Source of the DNA: Nitrospira sp.
Lineage (GTDB): Bacteria; Nitrospirota; Nitrospiria; Nitrospirales; Nitrospiraceae
Direction of reading: 5' to 3'
Assembly: GCA_009594865.1 (NCBI GenBank)
Contig: VOPT01000046.1
Location: forward strand, 1 to 64,000
Length of the DNA stretch: 64,000 nt
Numbering within the stretch: the stretch's first letter is position 1; the number at the start of each line of letters is the position of its first letter. The position numbers and the translations under genes are program-made. Below are positions 30,488 through 49,726 of the stretch, one piece after another. The notes below the pieces were generated by a model. The model was not told where the DNA came from and searched no databases. It saw nothing but the letters and a program-made list of their open reading frames with translations.

Positions 30488-30500
30488 TGGACAAGTCGAG

Positions 30501-30662
30501 GATGCTCAAAAAGGTCTGTCAGCAAGGCAGCAGGCGCTGACAAGACCGGAGGCGTACCAGTTCTCAACCACCCACCCCGAGCTGCCGGGACAGCTCTTGC
30601 TCCGAGGGTACGTTGAGGATCTTGTCGAGCCGCGAACGCAGCCGAAGGCCTTTTTCAGCATT
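30501..30662 (-). repeat. Palindromic intergenic element, copy A (long form, minus orientation)
   Basis: A 162-bp copy in reverse orientation between the CruF-like and HpnA genes. Its core (30539-30629) matches the reverse complement of copy C (40776-40866) at all but four of 91 positions. The inner stem pairs GACAAGA with TCTTGTC. The outer arms run GATGCTCAAAAAGG...CCTTTTTCAGCATT. See copy D for the architecture. Confidence 0.8.
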
Positions 30663-30665
30663 CGA

Positions 30666-31649
30666 TCAAGCGTAGCCATGCTCACGAAACCACCGTACCG
30701 CCTTCTCCAGCGCGACGTCGACCGGAGTTTGGGAGAGGCCCAGTTCGCGGATGGCCTTCGAACAGTCGTAATGCATTTTGTATTTGGCCATCTTGACCCC
30801 TTCGAGCGGGATGCGGGGCGGGACGCCGGTCAGGTTCGAGAACCATTGATTTGCATAGGCCAGTGGCAGAATTGCCAGGCGAGGCAGTTTCACAGAGGGG
30901 GCCTTCACACCCGTGATCCGGCTGAGGATCTGGAAGACCTCGTTCAGCAACAGATTCTTATTGCCGAGAATGTAGCGTTCGCCCTGTCGGCCCTTCTCCA
31001 TTGCCAACAGGTGCCCCTGGGCCACGTCGTCGACATCGATCAGGTTCATGCCCGTTTCAATGTACGCGGGCATCCGGCCCTTCATGAAGTCCACGATGAT
31101 CTGGCCGGTGGGGGTCGGCTTCACGTCTGCTTCTCCGACCGGCGCGCTCGGGTTCACGATGACGACCGGCAGGCCCTCACGAGCCAGCTTCAGCACTTCC
31201 TGCTCAGCGAGATATTTGGAGCGTTTGTAATGTCCCGCCATTTGTTCGAGGGAGACGGGCGTTTCTTCCGTCCCCAGCCCTCCGCCCGGCGGCAGGCCGA
31301 TCGCGCCGATGGTGCTGCAATAGACCGTGCGCTCGATGCCCACTTCGCGGGCTGTCTCAAGGAGCGTTCTGGTCCCGGTGACATTGATATCGTAGAAGAT
31401 GGAGGAATCTTTGGCCCACAGCGCGTAATGCGCCGCCACGTGATAGAGCTGCCGGCAGCCGCGGAGCGCCTGGCGAAGGGAATCACGATCGCGGAGATCG
31501 CCGTGCACCTGTTCGACCGGAAGCCCGGCCAGGTTTTGCAGATCCGCGCCGGCGCGGGAGATGACCCGGACGTCCACCCCGGCCTTGACCAGCGCGCGGG
31601 CCACAGCCCCGCCGACAAATCCGGTCGCGCCGGTGACGAGCGCTTTCAT
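30666..31649 (-). CDS. hpnA: Hopanoid-associated sugar epimerase HpnA
   Basis: A 327-residue extended SDR. NAD(P) motif at the very N-terminus (KALVTGATGFVGGAVARALV). HpnA marks follow: YHVAAHYALWAKD, NVTGTRTLLE, YCSTIGAIGLP, YKRSKYLAEQEV (Tyr and Lys of the active site), NPSAPVGEADVKPTPTG and RYILGNKNLLL. HpnA-type enzymes are found with hopanoid biosynthesis genes and are thought to modify side-chain sugars. The squalene-hopene cyclase is not in the window. The gene lies downstream of the prenyl diphosphate synthase on the same strand. Confidence 0.9.
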   Translation of the reverse strand: MKALVTGATGFVGGAVARALVKAGVDVRVISRAGADLQNLAGLPVEQVHGDLRDRDSLRQALRGCRQLYHVAAHYALWAKDSSIFYDINVTGTRTLLETAREVGIERTVYCSTIGAIGLPPGGGLGTEETPVSLEQMAGHYKRSKYLAEQEVLKLAREGLPVVIVNPSAPVGEADVKPTPTGQIIVDFMKGRMPAYIETGMNLIDVDDVAQGHLLAMEKGRQGERYILGNKNLLLNEVFQILSRITGVKAPSVKLPRLAILPLAYANQWFSNLTGVPPRIPLEGVKMAKYKMHYDCSKAIRELGLSQTPVDVALEKAVRWFREHGYA

Positions 31650-40300: not shown

Positions 40301-40364
40301 GGTCGACCATTCCCTGAAGAAGCAGCCCGCACCACGCGTCTCCCGATTCACCAAATAGGTGGTT

Positions 40365-40739
40365 ATGGCACAGCGGTTTCAAAGCGGCGCCTTCGTGCAA
40401 CAATGTTTCGCTGTCCATCCCTTGTGTCTTTCGCTCAAACGCATTGACGACGACGGACGGCTGGTGATCGCCTGCACCTCCTGCCGCATGATGCATCTCA
40501 TGACCCCCACCCAGGTGGTCGGGCGGGTGGCCGCCGTGCCGCTAGGCGGCGAGCTGGAGGCTCCTCAAGCACAACCTACTGCACGGGAATCGCTGGAAGA
40601 CTGTCTACGCGCCCATCCCGTCTCCGTGACCATCAGGGAGTTGGATGTGATTCGCGACCAGGTCGGATTGCGCTGCGGTGAATGCCGGCGCATCTTCGAT
40701 ATGCAGGTGTCGGAGTTTGAGTCTCTCCAAAAGGCGTAG
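40365..40739 (+). CDS. Duplicated CxxC-domain protein
   Basis: A 124-residue protein. Two tandem copies of about 40 residues can be aligned: the first has CFAVHPLCLSLKRID...LVIACTSCRMMHLM, the second CLRAHPVSVTIRELD...VGLRCGECRRIFDM. Each ends in a CxxCR knuckle, so the protein probably binds zinc through both pairs. The linker is Pro/Gln-rich. The family is not known to me. I start at ATG 40365; an earlier GTG at 40359 is possible. Confidence 0.7.
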   Translation: MAQRFQSGAFVQQCFAVHPLCLSLKRIDDDGRLVIACTSCRMMHLMTPTQVVGRVAAVPLGGELEAPQAQPTARESLEDCLRAHPVSVTIRELDVIRDQVGLRCGECRRIFDMQVSEFESLQKA

Positions 40740-40742
40740 CCG

Positions 40743-40904
40743 GATGCTGAAACAGTCCGCCAGCTGCGTTCTCGTCTCGACAAGATCCTCAACGTACTCT
40801 CGGAGCAAGAGCTGTCCCGGCAGCTCAGGGTGGGCGGGTGAGAACTGGTACGCCTCCGGTCTTGTCGTCGTCTGCGGCCTTGCTGGACGATTCGTGTGAG
40901 CATC
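40743..40904 (+). repeat. Palindromic intergenic element, copy C (long form)
   Basis: A 162-bp copy, near-identical in its core to copy A in inverse orientation. The inner stem pairs GACAAGA with TCTTGTC. It ends with GCGGCCTTGCTGGA and TGAGCATC. A 52-codon frame inside it is a by-product of the repeat. Confidence 0.8.
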
Positions 40905-42461: not shown

Positions 42462-43523
42462 GTGCGTGAACGCCGCTGGGAGACTGCCGGCCGGCTGACC
42501 TTTCAAGAGATCCTGACGGTCGGCGAGCGGCTGGGAGCCTTGGGCTTGAAGCCGGCCCACCCCGCCAAGGATGTGATCTGCTACGTGGAGGATTGGGCGG
42601 TCGAGTCGCCCCAGGCCTTCGATCAGCTCGACCATTGGGCCACGGAAGATGTCACCCTCCTCCACATCCGCGAAGCCTGGCAGGGTGATTTTTTCCTGCT
42701 GGCGGGCGGCTATCACACCGTCTATCAGCGCTTTCAGGATGTCGGCACCTACTGCTCCATCAGCCATCCCTGGCGCACCAAGCCCGGCTTGCGGTTTCAC
42801 TATCCCGCGTCCATGTTCTGGCTGGGGTTTCGTCATAACCATGCCTTTATCCGGGTGCGCCTGCATACGCAGGAAGTGGTGACGCCGGGGGAAACCCGGG
42901 AGGACGCGCGACGGGCGGAATGGGTGGACGAGCGACGGGCGATCTTTCTCGACGCCATCGCCCTGCTGGATCTGCCGGTGGAGACCTCCGTCGACAAGGG
43001 AAGTCTGGTGCTGGCGCCGGCGGACCCGGCTACGCCGTTTTTCTGTTCCTGGCCGGATGCCTTCGGGCCCTGCCAGTTTGAGTACAACTCCCTCGACGCC
43101 TATGAGTTTCTGGTACCGGCGAGCCGGTTAGCCGCCACCTTTGCGCCGCAGCTGGCCGGGGTGCGGGCCTATCTGACAGGCTTTTCCGAACAGGCGTTGG
43201 AGGCCTTTGCCGAAGTGCAACCGGGCGCCAGGACGGTCTATCGCTGTTCCGTGCATTGTGCGCTGGGAGAATTGCCGGAAGTGTTGGAGACCATCGCGCC
43301 CCAGGGTCGTCTCTATAGCACCCTCTGTGAGTTCCAGACTCAGGATTTGATGCCGGACGGGGAGGATGCCTCCGCCATTATCGGCATTGTGGGCACAGCC
43401 GGCGGGTTTCAATTGGAGGCGCGGCTGAATCGGGCGCCTTTGGACGAGGAGCACATGGCCGGATGGCTGGAGCGACTGTTGGGAATGCCGGTGGTGTATG
43501 CCCCGCTGCCCCCCTTCATGTAG
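42462..43523 (+). CDS. Protein of unknown function, 353 residues
   Basis: A soluble protein with a GTG start and a good GGAGGAG site. Visible segments: FQEILTVGERLGALGLKPAH, HWATEDVTLLHIREAWQGDF, LLAGGYHTVYQRFQDVGTYC, FCSWPDAFGPCQFEYNS and a C-terminal GMPVVYAPLPPFM. There is no membrane helix, signal or catalytic motif that I know. Its stop lies directly before a tandem run of four palindromic elements, so those elements form the end of its transcript. Confidence 0.65.
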   Translation: MRERRWETAGRLTFQEILTVGERLGALGLKPAHPAKDVICYVEDWAVESPQAFDQLDHWATEDVTLLHIREAWQGDFFLLAGGYHTVYQRFQDVGTYCSISHPWRTKPGLRFHYPASMFWLGFRHNHAFIRVRLHTQEVVTPGETREDARRAEWVDERRAIFLDAIALLDLPVETSVDKGSLVLAPADPATPFFCSWPDAFGPCQFEYNSLDAYEFLVPASRLAATFAPQLAGVRAYLTGFSEQALEAFAEVQPGARTVYRCSVHCALGELPEVLETIAPQGRLYSTLCEFQTQDLMPDGEDASAIIGIVGTAGGFQLEARLNRAPLDEEHMAGWLERLLGMPVVYAPLPPFM

Positions 43524-43524
43524 T

Positions 43525-43647
43525 CCGGCAGCTGAACATGACCCCCAGCTTCGTTCTCGGTCATTCCGGACCCTCAACGTACGGAAGAGTACGCCTCGGG
43601 TCCTTCATTCCCTGCGGCCTTGCTGGATGATCATTTTGAGCTGCCGG
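43525..43647 (+). repeat. Palindromic intergenic element, copy D (array member 1)
   Basis: A 123-bp copy that shows the architecture well. Outer arms CCGGCAGCT(g)AAcATGA...TCATtTT(g)AGCTGCCGG; box CCAGCTTCGTTCTCG; inner stem GGACCC with GGGTCC; boxes CGTAC and GTACGCCTCG round a short loop; box CTGCGGCCTTGCTGG. CCAGC pairs with GCTGG. Confidence 0.85.
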
Positions 43648-43652
43648 ATTCG

Positions 43653-43773
43653 GGATATTGAGCGCGGTGTGCCGGCGGCGTTCTCGCTTCGTTCCAGGGC
43701 TCGACGTACCAGATAATGTACGCCTCGCCCTCTCACTCGCTGCGGCCTTGCCGGACAACCGTTCTGAGCATCC
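43653..43773 (+). repeat. Palindromic intergenic element, copy E (array member 2)
   Basis: A 121-bp copy. The inner stem pairs AGGGC with GCCCT. The box pair CCAGC/GCTGG is changed on both sides to CCGGC/GCCGG, so pairing is kept. The outer arms GGATATTGAG and CTGAGCATCC are roughly complementary. Confidence 0.8.
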
Positions 43774-43786
43774 TGCACCATAATCA

Positions 43787-43905
43787 GCAGCTGAACATGG
43801 CCCCCAGCTTCGTTCTCAAGTCGAAAGAATCCTCGACGTACCGCAAAGGGTACGCCTTCGGTTCTTTCTTCTCTGCGGCCTTGCTGGATGGCCATGTTGA
43901 GCTGC
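43787..43905 (+). repeat. Palindromic intergenic element, copy F (array member 3)
   Basis: A 119-bp copy. The outer arms GCAGCT(g)AACATGGCC and GGCCATGTT(g)AGCTGC pair almost perfectly. The inner stem pairs GAAAGAA with TTCTTTC. The fixed boxes are kept. Confidence 0.85.
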
Positions 43906-43910
43906 CGGAC

Positions 43911-44033
43911 TCTCGATGTAGACTTGGTCCCGGGCGCCGTTCTCGCTTCGTTCCAGGGCTCGAGGTACCAGACAGCGTACGCCTCGGGTCCTTCATAGCC
44001 TGCGGCCTTGTTGGATGATCATTTGCAGCCGCC
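43911..44033 (+). repeat. Palindromic intergenic element, copy G (array member 4, hybrid)
   Basis: The left half (to about 43974) is nearly that of copy E and the right half (from GTACGCCTC) nearly that of copy D. Its inner arms (AGGGC, GGGTCC) therefore no longer match each other well. The rest of the gap to 44173 shows no feature. Confidence 0.7.
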
Positions 44034-44173
44034 GTGTGGATGTGATGGCTAGGACATTTTCGCTGCAGGGTGAACTGGGGTATGCGTAGTATGACCCAAT
44101 CGTGGCCTTCCGATTTCATCGTCTGATTCGTCTCTTCGTTTGACAATCGCCTGCGTCTCCTGAAATCTAGCGC

Positions 44174-45286
44174 ATGGTCTCATTACAACGGTTTCAGTCG
44201 GTCTTGGGTAAGCCCTACCTGCCGCCCCTGTTTTTCTTTAGCGGCGTAACGTACGACACCCTGGTGCTGACACGCATCGACCGTCTTCGGGATAATCTAT
44301 TGTTGCTGGCCTACCTGAGCCTCTTGGGTTTTTTGATCGTCCTGACCGGGCGATTGGGGACCCAGGAAGCCACGGTTGACGACCTCCCGCCGGACGCGCC
44401 TTTCTTCATGAAATGGGTCGTGCAGGCCAAGCCCTACGCCCCGATGGCCATCCAGTTCCTGCTGGGAGGTCTGTTCAGCGCGTACGCCATCTTTTATTCC
44501 AAGAGCGCCACATTTGCCGGGACGGCCGTGTTCTTCTGCATTCTGGTGGCGTTTCTTGTGGCGAATGAATTCCTTCGCAGCCGGCTGTCGAACATACAGT
44601 TGCTGGTCAGTCTCTATGCCCTCGTCTGTTTTGCCTTCTTCACATTTTTCCTGCCCGTCATGACTGGCTGGATGAACGTGGCGATCTTCCTGGCCGGTGC
44701 CGTGATGACCGTGTTGATCGTGTTGCGAGTTGTACAGTTGATCTATTGGAATAACGCCGATCGTACGACCCGCGAGGCGATGTGGGCCGGAGCGCCGGCC
44801 ATGGCGCTCATCGGGTTACTGGTCGGCTTCTATTTTATGAACTGGATTCCGCCCGTCCCCCTGTCGTTGAAATTCGGCGGGATGTATCACGAGGTGAAAC
44901 GCTCGGACGATCGGTATGAATTGAGCTTCGAGAAATCGTGGTACGAGGTGTGGAAAACGTCGGACAACGTGATTCCGGCCGACGATCCGGTCTATTGTTT
45001 CACGGCGGTGTTCGCGCCGGTGGCGCTCAAGACCACGATCTATCATCACTGGTATTACCGTCCCGACGCGGGTCAGCCTTTCACCGGTGCAGACCGCATT
45101 CCGCTGAAGATTTCCGGTGGGCGCGCGGGCGGCTATCGCGCCTATACCTTCAAGGAGGGACTCGATCCGGGGGACTGGCGGGTCGATGTGGAAGCGGAAG
45201 ACGGGCGTGTGATCGGGCGAGTGGCGGTCAAGGTATTGGACAAGACGGCGGTTGGGCCGCTGTCGTTGACGACGGTGGTGTATTAG
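44174..45286 (+). CDS. Membrane protein with C-terminal DUF2914 domain
   Basis: A 370-residue inner-membrane protein. Residues 1-235 carry seven or so hydrophobic helices. The C-terminal third is outside the membrane and matches DUF2914: VYCFTAVFAPVALKTTIYHH, WYYRPDAG, PLKISGGRAGGYRAYTFKEG and GDWRVDVEAEDGRVIGRV. DUF2914 is a beta-sandwich found at the end of membrane or exported proteins, function unknown. The start at ATG 44174 has no clear ribosome site. An FKBP remnant follows directly. Confidence 0.75.
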   Translation: MVSLQRFQSVLGKPYLPPLFFFSGVTYDTLVLTRIDRLRDNLLLLAYLSLLGFLIVLTGRLGTQEATVDDLPPDAPFFMKWVVQAKPYAPMAIQFLLGGLFSAYAIFYSKSATFAGTAVFFCILVAFLVANEFLRSRLSNIQLLVSLYALVCFAFFTFFLPVMTGWMNVAIFLAGAVMTVLIVLRVVQLIYWNNADRTTREAMWAGAPAMALIGLLVGFYFMNWIPPVPLSLKFGGMYHEVKRSDDRYELSFEKSWYEVWKTSDNVIPADDPVYCFTAVFAPVALKTTIYHHWYYRPDAGQPFTGADRIPLKISGGRAGGYRAYTFKEGLDPGDWRVDVEAEDGRVIGRVAVKVLDKTAVGPLSLTTVVY

Positions 45287-47443: not shown

Positions 47444-47485
47444 TCGGACCTTCCCGCTCCATCATTTGAGCTCGGGTTGGATGCC

Positions 47486-48196
47486 GTGAACACCTATATG
47501 GCCAAAGTGAGTCGGGTTGAGGATCTCACGCATGACGTGCGGGCGATTGAGCTGCGCCTGCTGGAGCCGGCGAGCATCACGTTTAAAGCCGGACAATTCG
47601 TCTCGTTCGAGGTGCCGAAGGAAGGACAGCTCCGCCCCGTGACCAGGCCTTATTCCATTGCCTCTCCACCGGAGCAGCGAGAGCGGATCCTCCTCGTCCT
47701 GAATCTGGTTCAGGGCGGGCCCGGTTCGAGTTACCTGTTTGGTCTGCGCGACGGGGAGCGGACCTCGTTCAAGGGGCCCGCTGGCGCCTTTTATCTCCGC
47801 GACGACGGGACGAAGGATCTGCTGTTCGTCGCAACGGGAACCGGCATCGCGCCCATGCGGAGTATGATCCTGGCGCAATTACAACGACAGCCGGACCGAC
47901 CGGTCACGTTGTTCTGGGGACTGCGCAGCCAGCGGGATCTCTATTGGCAGGATGAACTGGCGACACTGGCCGCGGCCCATCCTCATTTCTCCTTCACCAC
48001 TACATTGTCCCGACCTGAGCCTGGGTGGCAGGGGACAAGCGGGCGCGTAACGGCGTTGGTGGAGGAGCGGATCACTTCTGTGAGAAATCTCGCCGTCTAT
48101 CTCTGCGGCGGGAGCGACATGATCAAGGACGTGACGGCCCGGATCAACGCCAAGGGGTTGTGTCCGATTTATCGCGAAAAGTACTATGACGAGTGA
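47486..48196 (+). CDS. Ferredoxin-NADP reductase-like flavoprotein
   Basis: A 236-residue enzyme. The FAD-binding domain shows FKAGQFVSFEVP and RPYSIASPP (the RxYS flavin motif). The NAD(P) domain shows LFVATGTGIAPMRSMI and the C-terminal LCGGSDMIKDV. This is the FNR superfamily (phenol hydroxylase reductase type, without an attached 2Fe-2S domain). It moves electrons between NAD(P)H and an unknown partner. I start at GTG 47486; TTG 47477 and ATG 47498 are alternatives. Its stop is followed two bases later by copy H of the palindromic element. Confidence 0.85.
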   Translation: MNTYMAKVSRVEDLTHDVRAIELRLLEPASITFKAGQFVSFEVPKEGQLRPVTRPYSIASPPEQRERILLVLNLVQGGPGSSYLFGLRDGERTSFKGPAGAFYLRDDGTKDLLFVATGTGIAPMRSMILAQLQRQPDRPVTLFWGLRSQRDLYWQDELATLAAAHPHFSFTTTLSRPEPGWQGTSGRVTALVEERITSVRNLAVYLCGGSDMIKDVTARINAKGLCPIYREKYYDE

Positions 48197-48197
48197 C

Positions 48198-48318
48198 GGC
48201 CGATGAAAGAGGTCGCCAGCGGCGTTCTCTGTCGCATGCCTCCCTGCGACGTACCCAGAGGGTACGCCTCAGTCGGCATGCTCCTTGCGGCCTTGCTGGA
48301 CGACCTCTTTGATCGGCC
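48198..48318 (+). repeat. Palindromic intergenic element, copy H
   Basis: A 121-bp copy directly after the reductase gene. The outer arms GGCCGATgAAAGAGGTCG and CGACCTCTTTgATCGGCC pair almost without fault. The inner stem pairs GCATGCC with GGCATGC, and GTACCC with GGGTAC. The fixed boxes are kept. Confidence 0.88.
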
Positions 48319-48330
48319 TGGTTGTCCGCG

Positions 48331-48400
48331 TGATGAAAGAGGGCGCTAGCGGCTTTCTCGGTCGCACGGCTCCCGGCGACGTACCCACAGGCTCCTGTAC
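48331..48400 (+). repeat. Palindromic intergenic element, copy I (truncated)
   Basis: A left half like copy H (GATGAAAGAGGGCGCTAGCGG, then TTCTCGGTCGCACG and CGACGTACCC). The right half is missing and replaced by a GTACCCACAGGCTCCTGTAC segment. Confidence 0.65.
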
Positions 48401-49255: not shown

Positions 49256-49600
49256 ATGACTCACTCACAACCCAAAACGGTACGAGCCTTCTTTGCCACG
49301 CTCCCCGGCAAGTTGGACCCTGAAGCGGCCGAAGGCCTGGATGTCGTCTACCAGTTCGATCTGAACGGGGCTGATGGCGGACAGTACCAACTTCAGGTTC
49401 GGGACGGGGCTTGCCAGGTGTCCGAAGGGAATCACCCGGATCCGAATGTCACGCTGGCGATGTCGGGCGAAGATTGCCTGCGTGTATTGAATGGCCAGGT
49501 CAGCGGCACCATGATCGCCATGACCGGCCGCCTCCGCATCAGCGGTGACATGGGCCTGGCGCTGCAGTTGGCTTCCCTCTTCCCCAGTCTCCGTCCCTAG
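49256..49600 (+). CDS. SCP2 sterol-binding domain protein
   Basis: A 114-residue protein matching the SCP2 fold: VRAFFATLPGKLDPEAAEGL, VVYQFDLNGADGGQYQLQVR, VTLAMSGEDCLRVLNGQ and ALQLASLF. SCP2 domains bind lipids or sterol-like molecules in a hydrophobic tunnel. In this genome hopanoids or quinones are possible ligands, which is inference. It is 51 bp after the AdoMet decarboxylase-like gene and may share its transcript. It is followed at once by copy J. Confidence 0.82.
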   Translation: MTHSQPKTVRAFFATLPGKLDPEAAEGLDVVYQFDLNGADGGQYQLQVRDGACQVSEGNHPDPNVTLAMSGEDCLRVLNGQVSGTMIAMTGRLRISGDMGLALQLASLFPSLRP

Positions 49601-49726
49601 CAGGCTGTTGAGAAATGCCGCCAGCGGCGTTCTCGGTCGCACGTCTCCCTGTGACGTACCCAGCGGGTACGCCTCAGTCGCCGTGCTTCCTGCGGCCTTG
49701 CTGGACAACATCTCTTAACAGCCTGC
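49600..49726 (+). repeat. Palindromic intergenic element, copy J
   Basis: A 127-bp copy between convergent genes. The outer arms GCAGGCTGTT(g)AGA(a)ATG and CAT(c)TCTTAACAGCCTGC pair. The inner stem pairs GCACG with CGTGC, and GTACCC with GGGTAC. CCAGC/GCTGG is present. It may act as a bidirectional terminator here. Confidence 0.88.

Follow-up and report, generated by a model that had tools for sequence, protein, structure and literature searches.

Extragenic palindromes and the Nitrospira repeat family

The closest described systems to the repeats analysed here are two groups of extragenic palindromes. The ERIC (IRU, RU-1) sequences of enterobacteria are intergenic repeats of about 127 bp whose transcripts are highly base-paired, and a role in mRNA stability has been proposed for them (PMC2229807). 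The REP, BIME and REPIN sequences are extragenic palindromes occurring in many copies, often as mosaic clusters (PMC3733652, PMC2817692). In addition, template switching during replication is known to change both arms of an inverted repeat together (PMC8794818, PMC7202029).

We analysed a 64,000-nt stretch of a Nitrospira sp. genome (contig VOPT01000046.1, positions 1–64,000; hereafter the window), which carries several copies of an imperfect palindrome of ~123 nt. The outer and inner arms of this unit are variable, and its constant parts are the boxes CGTTCTC, CGTAC...GTACGCCTC and CTGCGGCCTTG. Further copies were gathered by searching with a covariance model, R1, built from eight window copies (A2 and R1 models). 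The genome to which the window belongs (G000) was found to hold at least 80 copies (150 of 541 candidates scored), most close congeners at least 38–91 and one genome, G004, at least two (150 candidates per genome scored), and the family is abundant in the genus Nitrospira. No match to it was obtained in Rfam at either gathering or relaxed thresholds, and broad search terms, which returned mostly unrelated papers, led to no earlier description of such a Nitrospira repeat in the open-access literature. The family thus seems to be undescribed so far.

The likeness to ERIC is one of general description: the units are repeated, hairpin-forming and situated near gene ends, and the hallmark of ERIC/IRU, an imperfect palindrome of ~127 bp in many intergenic copies, is found here in units of nearly that length and in the numbers given above. 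However, the present family occurs in Nitrospira and not in enterobacteria, its arm sequences vary between copies yet stay complementary, and its units form direct tandem arrays, with most copies a few bases past a stop codon on one strand. As to the TA ends and target-site duplication of ERIC, many copies start behind TAG, and inspection by eye showed no constant duplication at the other end. With REP, BIME and REPIN the family shares the character of extragenic palindromes in many copies, but REP units are 20–40 bp long with a GTAG or CGTC tag, whereas those described here have no constant tag and are arrayed head-to-tail. In unit size and tag the family thus departs from REP/REPIN. A RAYT (Y1_Tnp) as the driver of the family was rejected, as no PF01797 match was found in G005, G009 and G011 despite their many copies, and Y1 genes do not track copy number. 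The family may work like ERIC-type or REP-type extragenic palindromes, and is set beside them here by analogy, not placed in either group.

Unit G is a chimera of two repeat types

Four units of the family, D, E, F and G, are placed head-to-tail in direct tandem (43528–44036) between a gene ending at 43523 and a gene starting at 44174 (Table 1).

Table 1. Units of the repeat family in the window and subdivisions of unit G (CM, covariance model)
Feature	Position	Strand	Remarks
Unit D, first of the array; starts 4 nt past the stop codon of gene 42462–43523	43528–43648	+	CM R1 123.5 bits; orthologues in G011 (89%) and G009 (91%)
Unit E, donor type for the left half of G	43654–43776	+	CM R1 101.5 bits; orthologue in G011 (93%)
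Unit F	43787–43909	+	CM R1 124.7 bits; 80% to D; orthologue in G011 (90%)
Unit G, E-left/D-right hybrid with the hairpin lost	43918–44036	+	CM R1 76.5 bits; diagnostic sites; fold z about +0.4 to +0.6
G left part, E-type	43918–43973	+	91% to E consensus; E clade 100/99.9
G breakpoint interval: loop and central box GTACGCCTCG (box 43977–43986)	43974–43987	+	Flanking diagnostic sites, alignment columns 63 and 78
G right part, D-type	43988–44036	+	92% to D consensus; 88.5% to D over 61 nt
Family member 3 nt past the stop codon of 40359–40739; ~45 nt insert in central loop	40743–40908	+	Orthologue in G011 without insert
Family member 3 nt past the stop codon of minus-strand gene 30666–31649; same kind of insert	30497–30662	−	
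Family member 2 nt past the stop codon of 47477–48196; truncated second unit from 48332	48199–48321	+	
Family member 3 nt past the stop codon of 49256–49600	49604–49726	+	

The first-pass annotation had described G, given there as 43911–44033, as the left half of E joined to the right half of D. To place G among the repeat types, orthologous D-, E- and F-type units were found in other Nitrospira species via the proteins of both genes flanking the junction, and the consensus sequence of each type was derived from these units. Within the window, BLAST gave 84% identity between the left 79 nt of G and E, and 88.5% between its right 61 nt and D. Compared with the type consensuses, the left part of G was closest to E (91%, against 60% for D and 63% for F) and the right part to D (92%, against 50% for E and 78% for F). 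The 28 diagnostic sites of G divided as 13 E to two D on the left of the central box and none E to 13 D on the right (best split, Fisher 2.8e-6; permutation p 5e-4, which is the floor of 2000 shuffles), and unit D, taken as a control in the same test, showed no split. Alignment columns 63 and 78 bound the breakpoint, and the interval between them contains the central box, in agreement with the earlier placing of the join at the centre. The trees of the two halves also disagreed, as the left half fell within the E clade and the right half was placed outside it (95/95), beside the D unit of G009 (93/83). AU tests on these half-element trees (36–43 columns, little power) rejected no alternative for G; since the columns were too few, the diagnostic-site test took their place. 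Thus G is a true chimera of two repeat types, as had been claimed.

The D-type nature of the right half was therefore upheld, but the particular motif said to be shared with D was not, as G has TTGGATGATCATTT where D has CTGGATGATCATTT. G differs privately from both D and E, and does so in both halves. Its identity with the local E, 91%, is equalled by that with the E units of G025 and of G028, and for the right half the D of G009 (94%) is a better match than the local D (92%). Either the exchange therefore happened long ago, or the copies that recombined were sisters of the present local D and E. Such distances, about as large as those between the local D and E and their orthologues in other species, would also suit a G that is not recombinant and either preserves an E-left/D-right state ancestral to both D and E or reached it by convergence. 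This is highly improbable, because intact D and E types exist in several species, the halves of G side with different types and the switch between them is sharp. No full-length match to G was found elsewhere in 29 congeneric genomes; the sole other strong-score match covering most of G was the second unit of G023 (80% over 110 nt), itself a hybrid at the same junction.

The inner arms of G had been expected to pair poorly. This was not the case, as AGGGCTCGA pairs with TCGGGTCCT once the register is shifted, leaving a 2-nt bulge; what is lost instead is the whole-element hairpin, with a z value against shuffled sequence of +0.36 as RNA and +0.60 as DNA. As RNA, F (z −5.9; −4.9 as DNA) and D (z −4.9) fold far better than shuffled sequence, and E hardly better (z −0.9). 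An artificial join of E-left and D-right folded like shuffled sequence (z 0.0, RNA), as G does, so that a join of this kind would be expected to abolish the hairpin. As a test for hybrids, free duplex folding of the inner arms was discarded: shifted registers pair well, which makes it uninformative.

The orthologous junction in other Nitrospira genomes

At the orthologous junction the number of units varies from 0 to 4 among species. D-, E- and F-type units are present there in several species, D and E as intact types, and these types are thus older than the species themselves. In G029, E is directly followed by D, and the flank downstream of this pair is alignable with that behind G. Other mixed units were also observed. 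The second unit of G023 is an E-left/F-right hybrid joined near the centre (diagnostic sites, Fisher 7.5e-7); over 36 nt its right half is 94% identical with the neighbouring F and 97% with the F of G002, and the outer right arms of the hybrid and the neighbouring F both have CCCTGTTGAGCTGCCGG. The second unit of G007 is an F-left/D-right hybrid, likewise joined near the centre (Fisher 5.8e-4). By eye, G025 has a unit with a core of E type whose right end is of F type, the two meeting at the right-hand CTGCGGCC box; in G024 and G035, F is followed by truncated E units. Both G and the G023 hybrid occupy the 3′-most place of the junction, and they might stem from one event with the right half changed later.

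These hybrids also bear on whether G could be an assembly artefact in which reads from D and E were joined. The draft of G000 is incomplete, in 78 contigs, and the units are short tandem repeats, but G has private bases in both halves, which simply joining D and E reads by mistake would not give, and comparable hybrids occur in a single-contig genome (G007) and on a long contig (G023), so that we give this explanation almost no credence. The junction in 27 congeneric genomes, with its 0–4 units and several hybrids, offers a natural series for counting exchange events.

Two features of the junction lie outside the units. In G030, the closest genome by flanking protein, and in G027 and G005 (L038, L042 and L044, respectively), the place of any repeat unit is taken by ~626 bp that include an open frame resembling a lipoprotein gene. 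Upstream of gene 44174–45286, TTCGTTTGACAATCGCCTGCGTCTCCTGAAATCTAG (window 44135–44170) is conserved in most genomes compared, whether or not they have an array, and is possibly the promoter of this gene.

Origin of unit G

We consider that G most likely arose by ordinary homologous recombination (unequal exchange) or by slippage within the tandem array, with a probability of roughly 70%. An E unit and the D unit next after it would have been fused between their conserved central boxes, at the GTACGCCTC common to both, through either an unequal homologous exchange or a slippage deletion of one unit length. The product would have the left arm of E and the right arm of D, mismatched outside the inner stem and hence unable to form the whole-element fold. 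Such a fusion accounts for the order of the halves, for where they are joined and for the altered number of units, and G029 has the very E–D pair whose fusion would give G. The varying unit number, the further mixed units and this pair together bear out the earlier suggestion of an exchange within the array.

Gene conversion would leave the unit number unchanged: an E-type unit already standing last in the array would have had its right half overwritten from a D-type unit. The G023 hybrid, with a right half so close to that of its neighbour F, has the look of such local copying. However, conversion requires an E unit at the array end beforehand, and gain or loss of units certainly happens, as their number differs among species. 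Conversion is accordingly an unlikely origin, if one to be taken seriously, and the exchange was probably a crossover or a deletion, made presumably by RecA-type homology or slippage.

The first-pass annotation had also put forward site-specific recombination, with half-elements swapped at the central GTAC box, and three hybrids (G and those of G023 and G007) are indeed joined in or near the centre. Yet unlike units share 8–11 nt at three conserved boxes, of which the centre is one, and homology predicts the same joins. Moreover, no linked recombinase came to light, and three genomes with many copies (G005, G009 and G011) lack Y1 transposase genes (PF01797). The join of the G025 unit lies at a different conserved box, CTGCGGCC, and homology-driven exchange therefore fits better than a special GTAC site, which we regard as very unlikely. 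The G hybrid is good evidence for half-unit exchange between conserved boxes of tandem palindromic repeats.

Arm pairing and placement of the family

Across 135 distinct copies, 87% of the cells in 35 arm pairs were standard pairs, and 31 of the 35 pairs had changed on both sides, as against 0 of 500 shuffles, in an alignment fitted to the model. With three columns of frequent U–G excluded, there were 143 G–U and 180 A–C cells. As G–U cells do not exceed A–C cells, there is no wobble signature of RNA folding on the coding strand, where a structural RNA would be expected to show a G–U excess. Among orthologous units, pair-keeping double changes numbered 52 and one-sided changes 144, both being sums of non-independent pairwise counts. 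Quasipalindromes homogenised by template switching likewise change in both arms together, a likeness addressed here by pair statistics only, and template switching (PMC8794818) is one known process that might keep the family arms complementary. Because its arms covary without a G–U excess, the family could help to tell correction of the arms at the DNA level apart from selection on RNA.

The position of the copies relative to genes was determined for 73 G000 copies not preceded by another unit, using open frames of at least 80 codons. A same-strand stop codon ended 2–10 nt before the copy in 51 of them, and exactly 3 nt before it in 29. Such a stop codon was found for 4.9% of random positions nearby and, on the opposite strand at the other end of the copy, for 2/73. 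This placement calls for an explanation, either an insertion preference or a 3′-end function. The two-unit array behind 47477–48196 (window 48199–48400) is common to G009 (L019:8588–8840), where the second unit has a right half similar to that of the window's first unit, possibly through another exchange.

Taken together, one may tentatively picture a hitherto undescribed Nitrospira family that settles or is kept behind stop codons, with its arms held complementary by template-switch correction at the DNA level and not by selection for an RNA hairpin, its half-units reshuffled in arrays, and hybrids such as G as uncorrected intermediates; as a whole, this picture is rather doubtful. The repeat family is of more interest than the G hybrid and deserves follow-up.

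Inserts within units

Three kinds of insert were observed within units. The first, of ~45 nt, lies in the central loop and consists of a small hairpin followed by a GGG(T/C)GGGCGGGTGAGAA-like sequence. Besides the two window copies listed in Table 1, it is found at L111:7230–7395 and in units of L151, L152 and L158; the G011 orthologue lacking it (L017:2796–2918) corresponds to the window copy at 40743. The second, of ~50 nt (AAGGCGCGTCTCGGCGCGCCGGGG..GGGCGGGTAAG), is found in several species at a constant point of the right arm, in units of F, D or E type, namely at L017:5804–5918 (G011) and in L035 (G008), L045 (G021), L047 (G025), L054 (G031), L056 (G022), L060 (G012) and L157, and is possibly a mobile, nested mini-element. 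The third kind is longer and lies in or near the unit centre, at L054:2986–3174 (G031), L162:2200–2416 and G000:C30:25654–25840, the first two of which contain GACACTGCCGGCTCACCG..GTGGCGCTCTTT..
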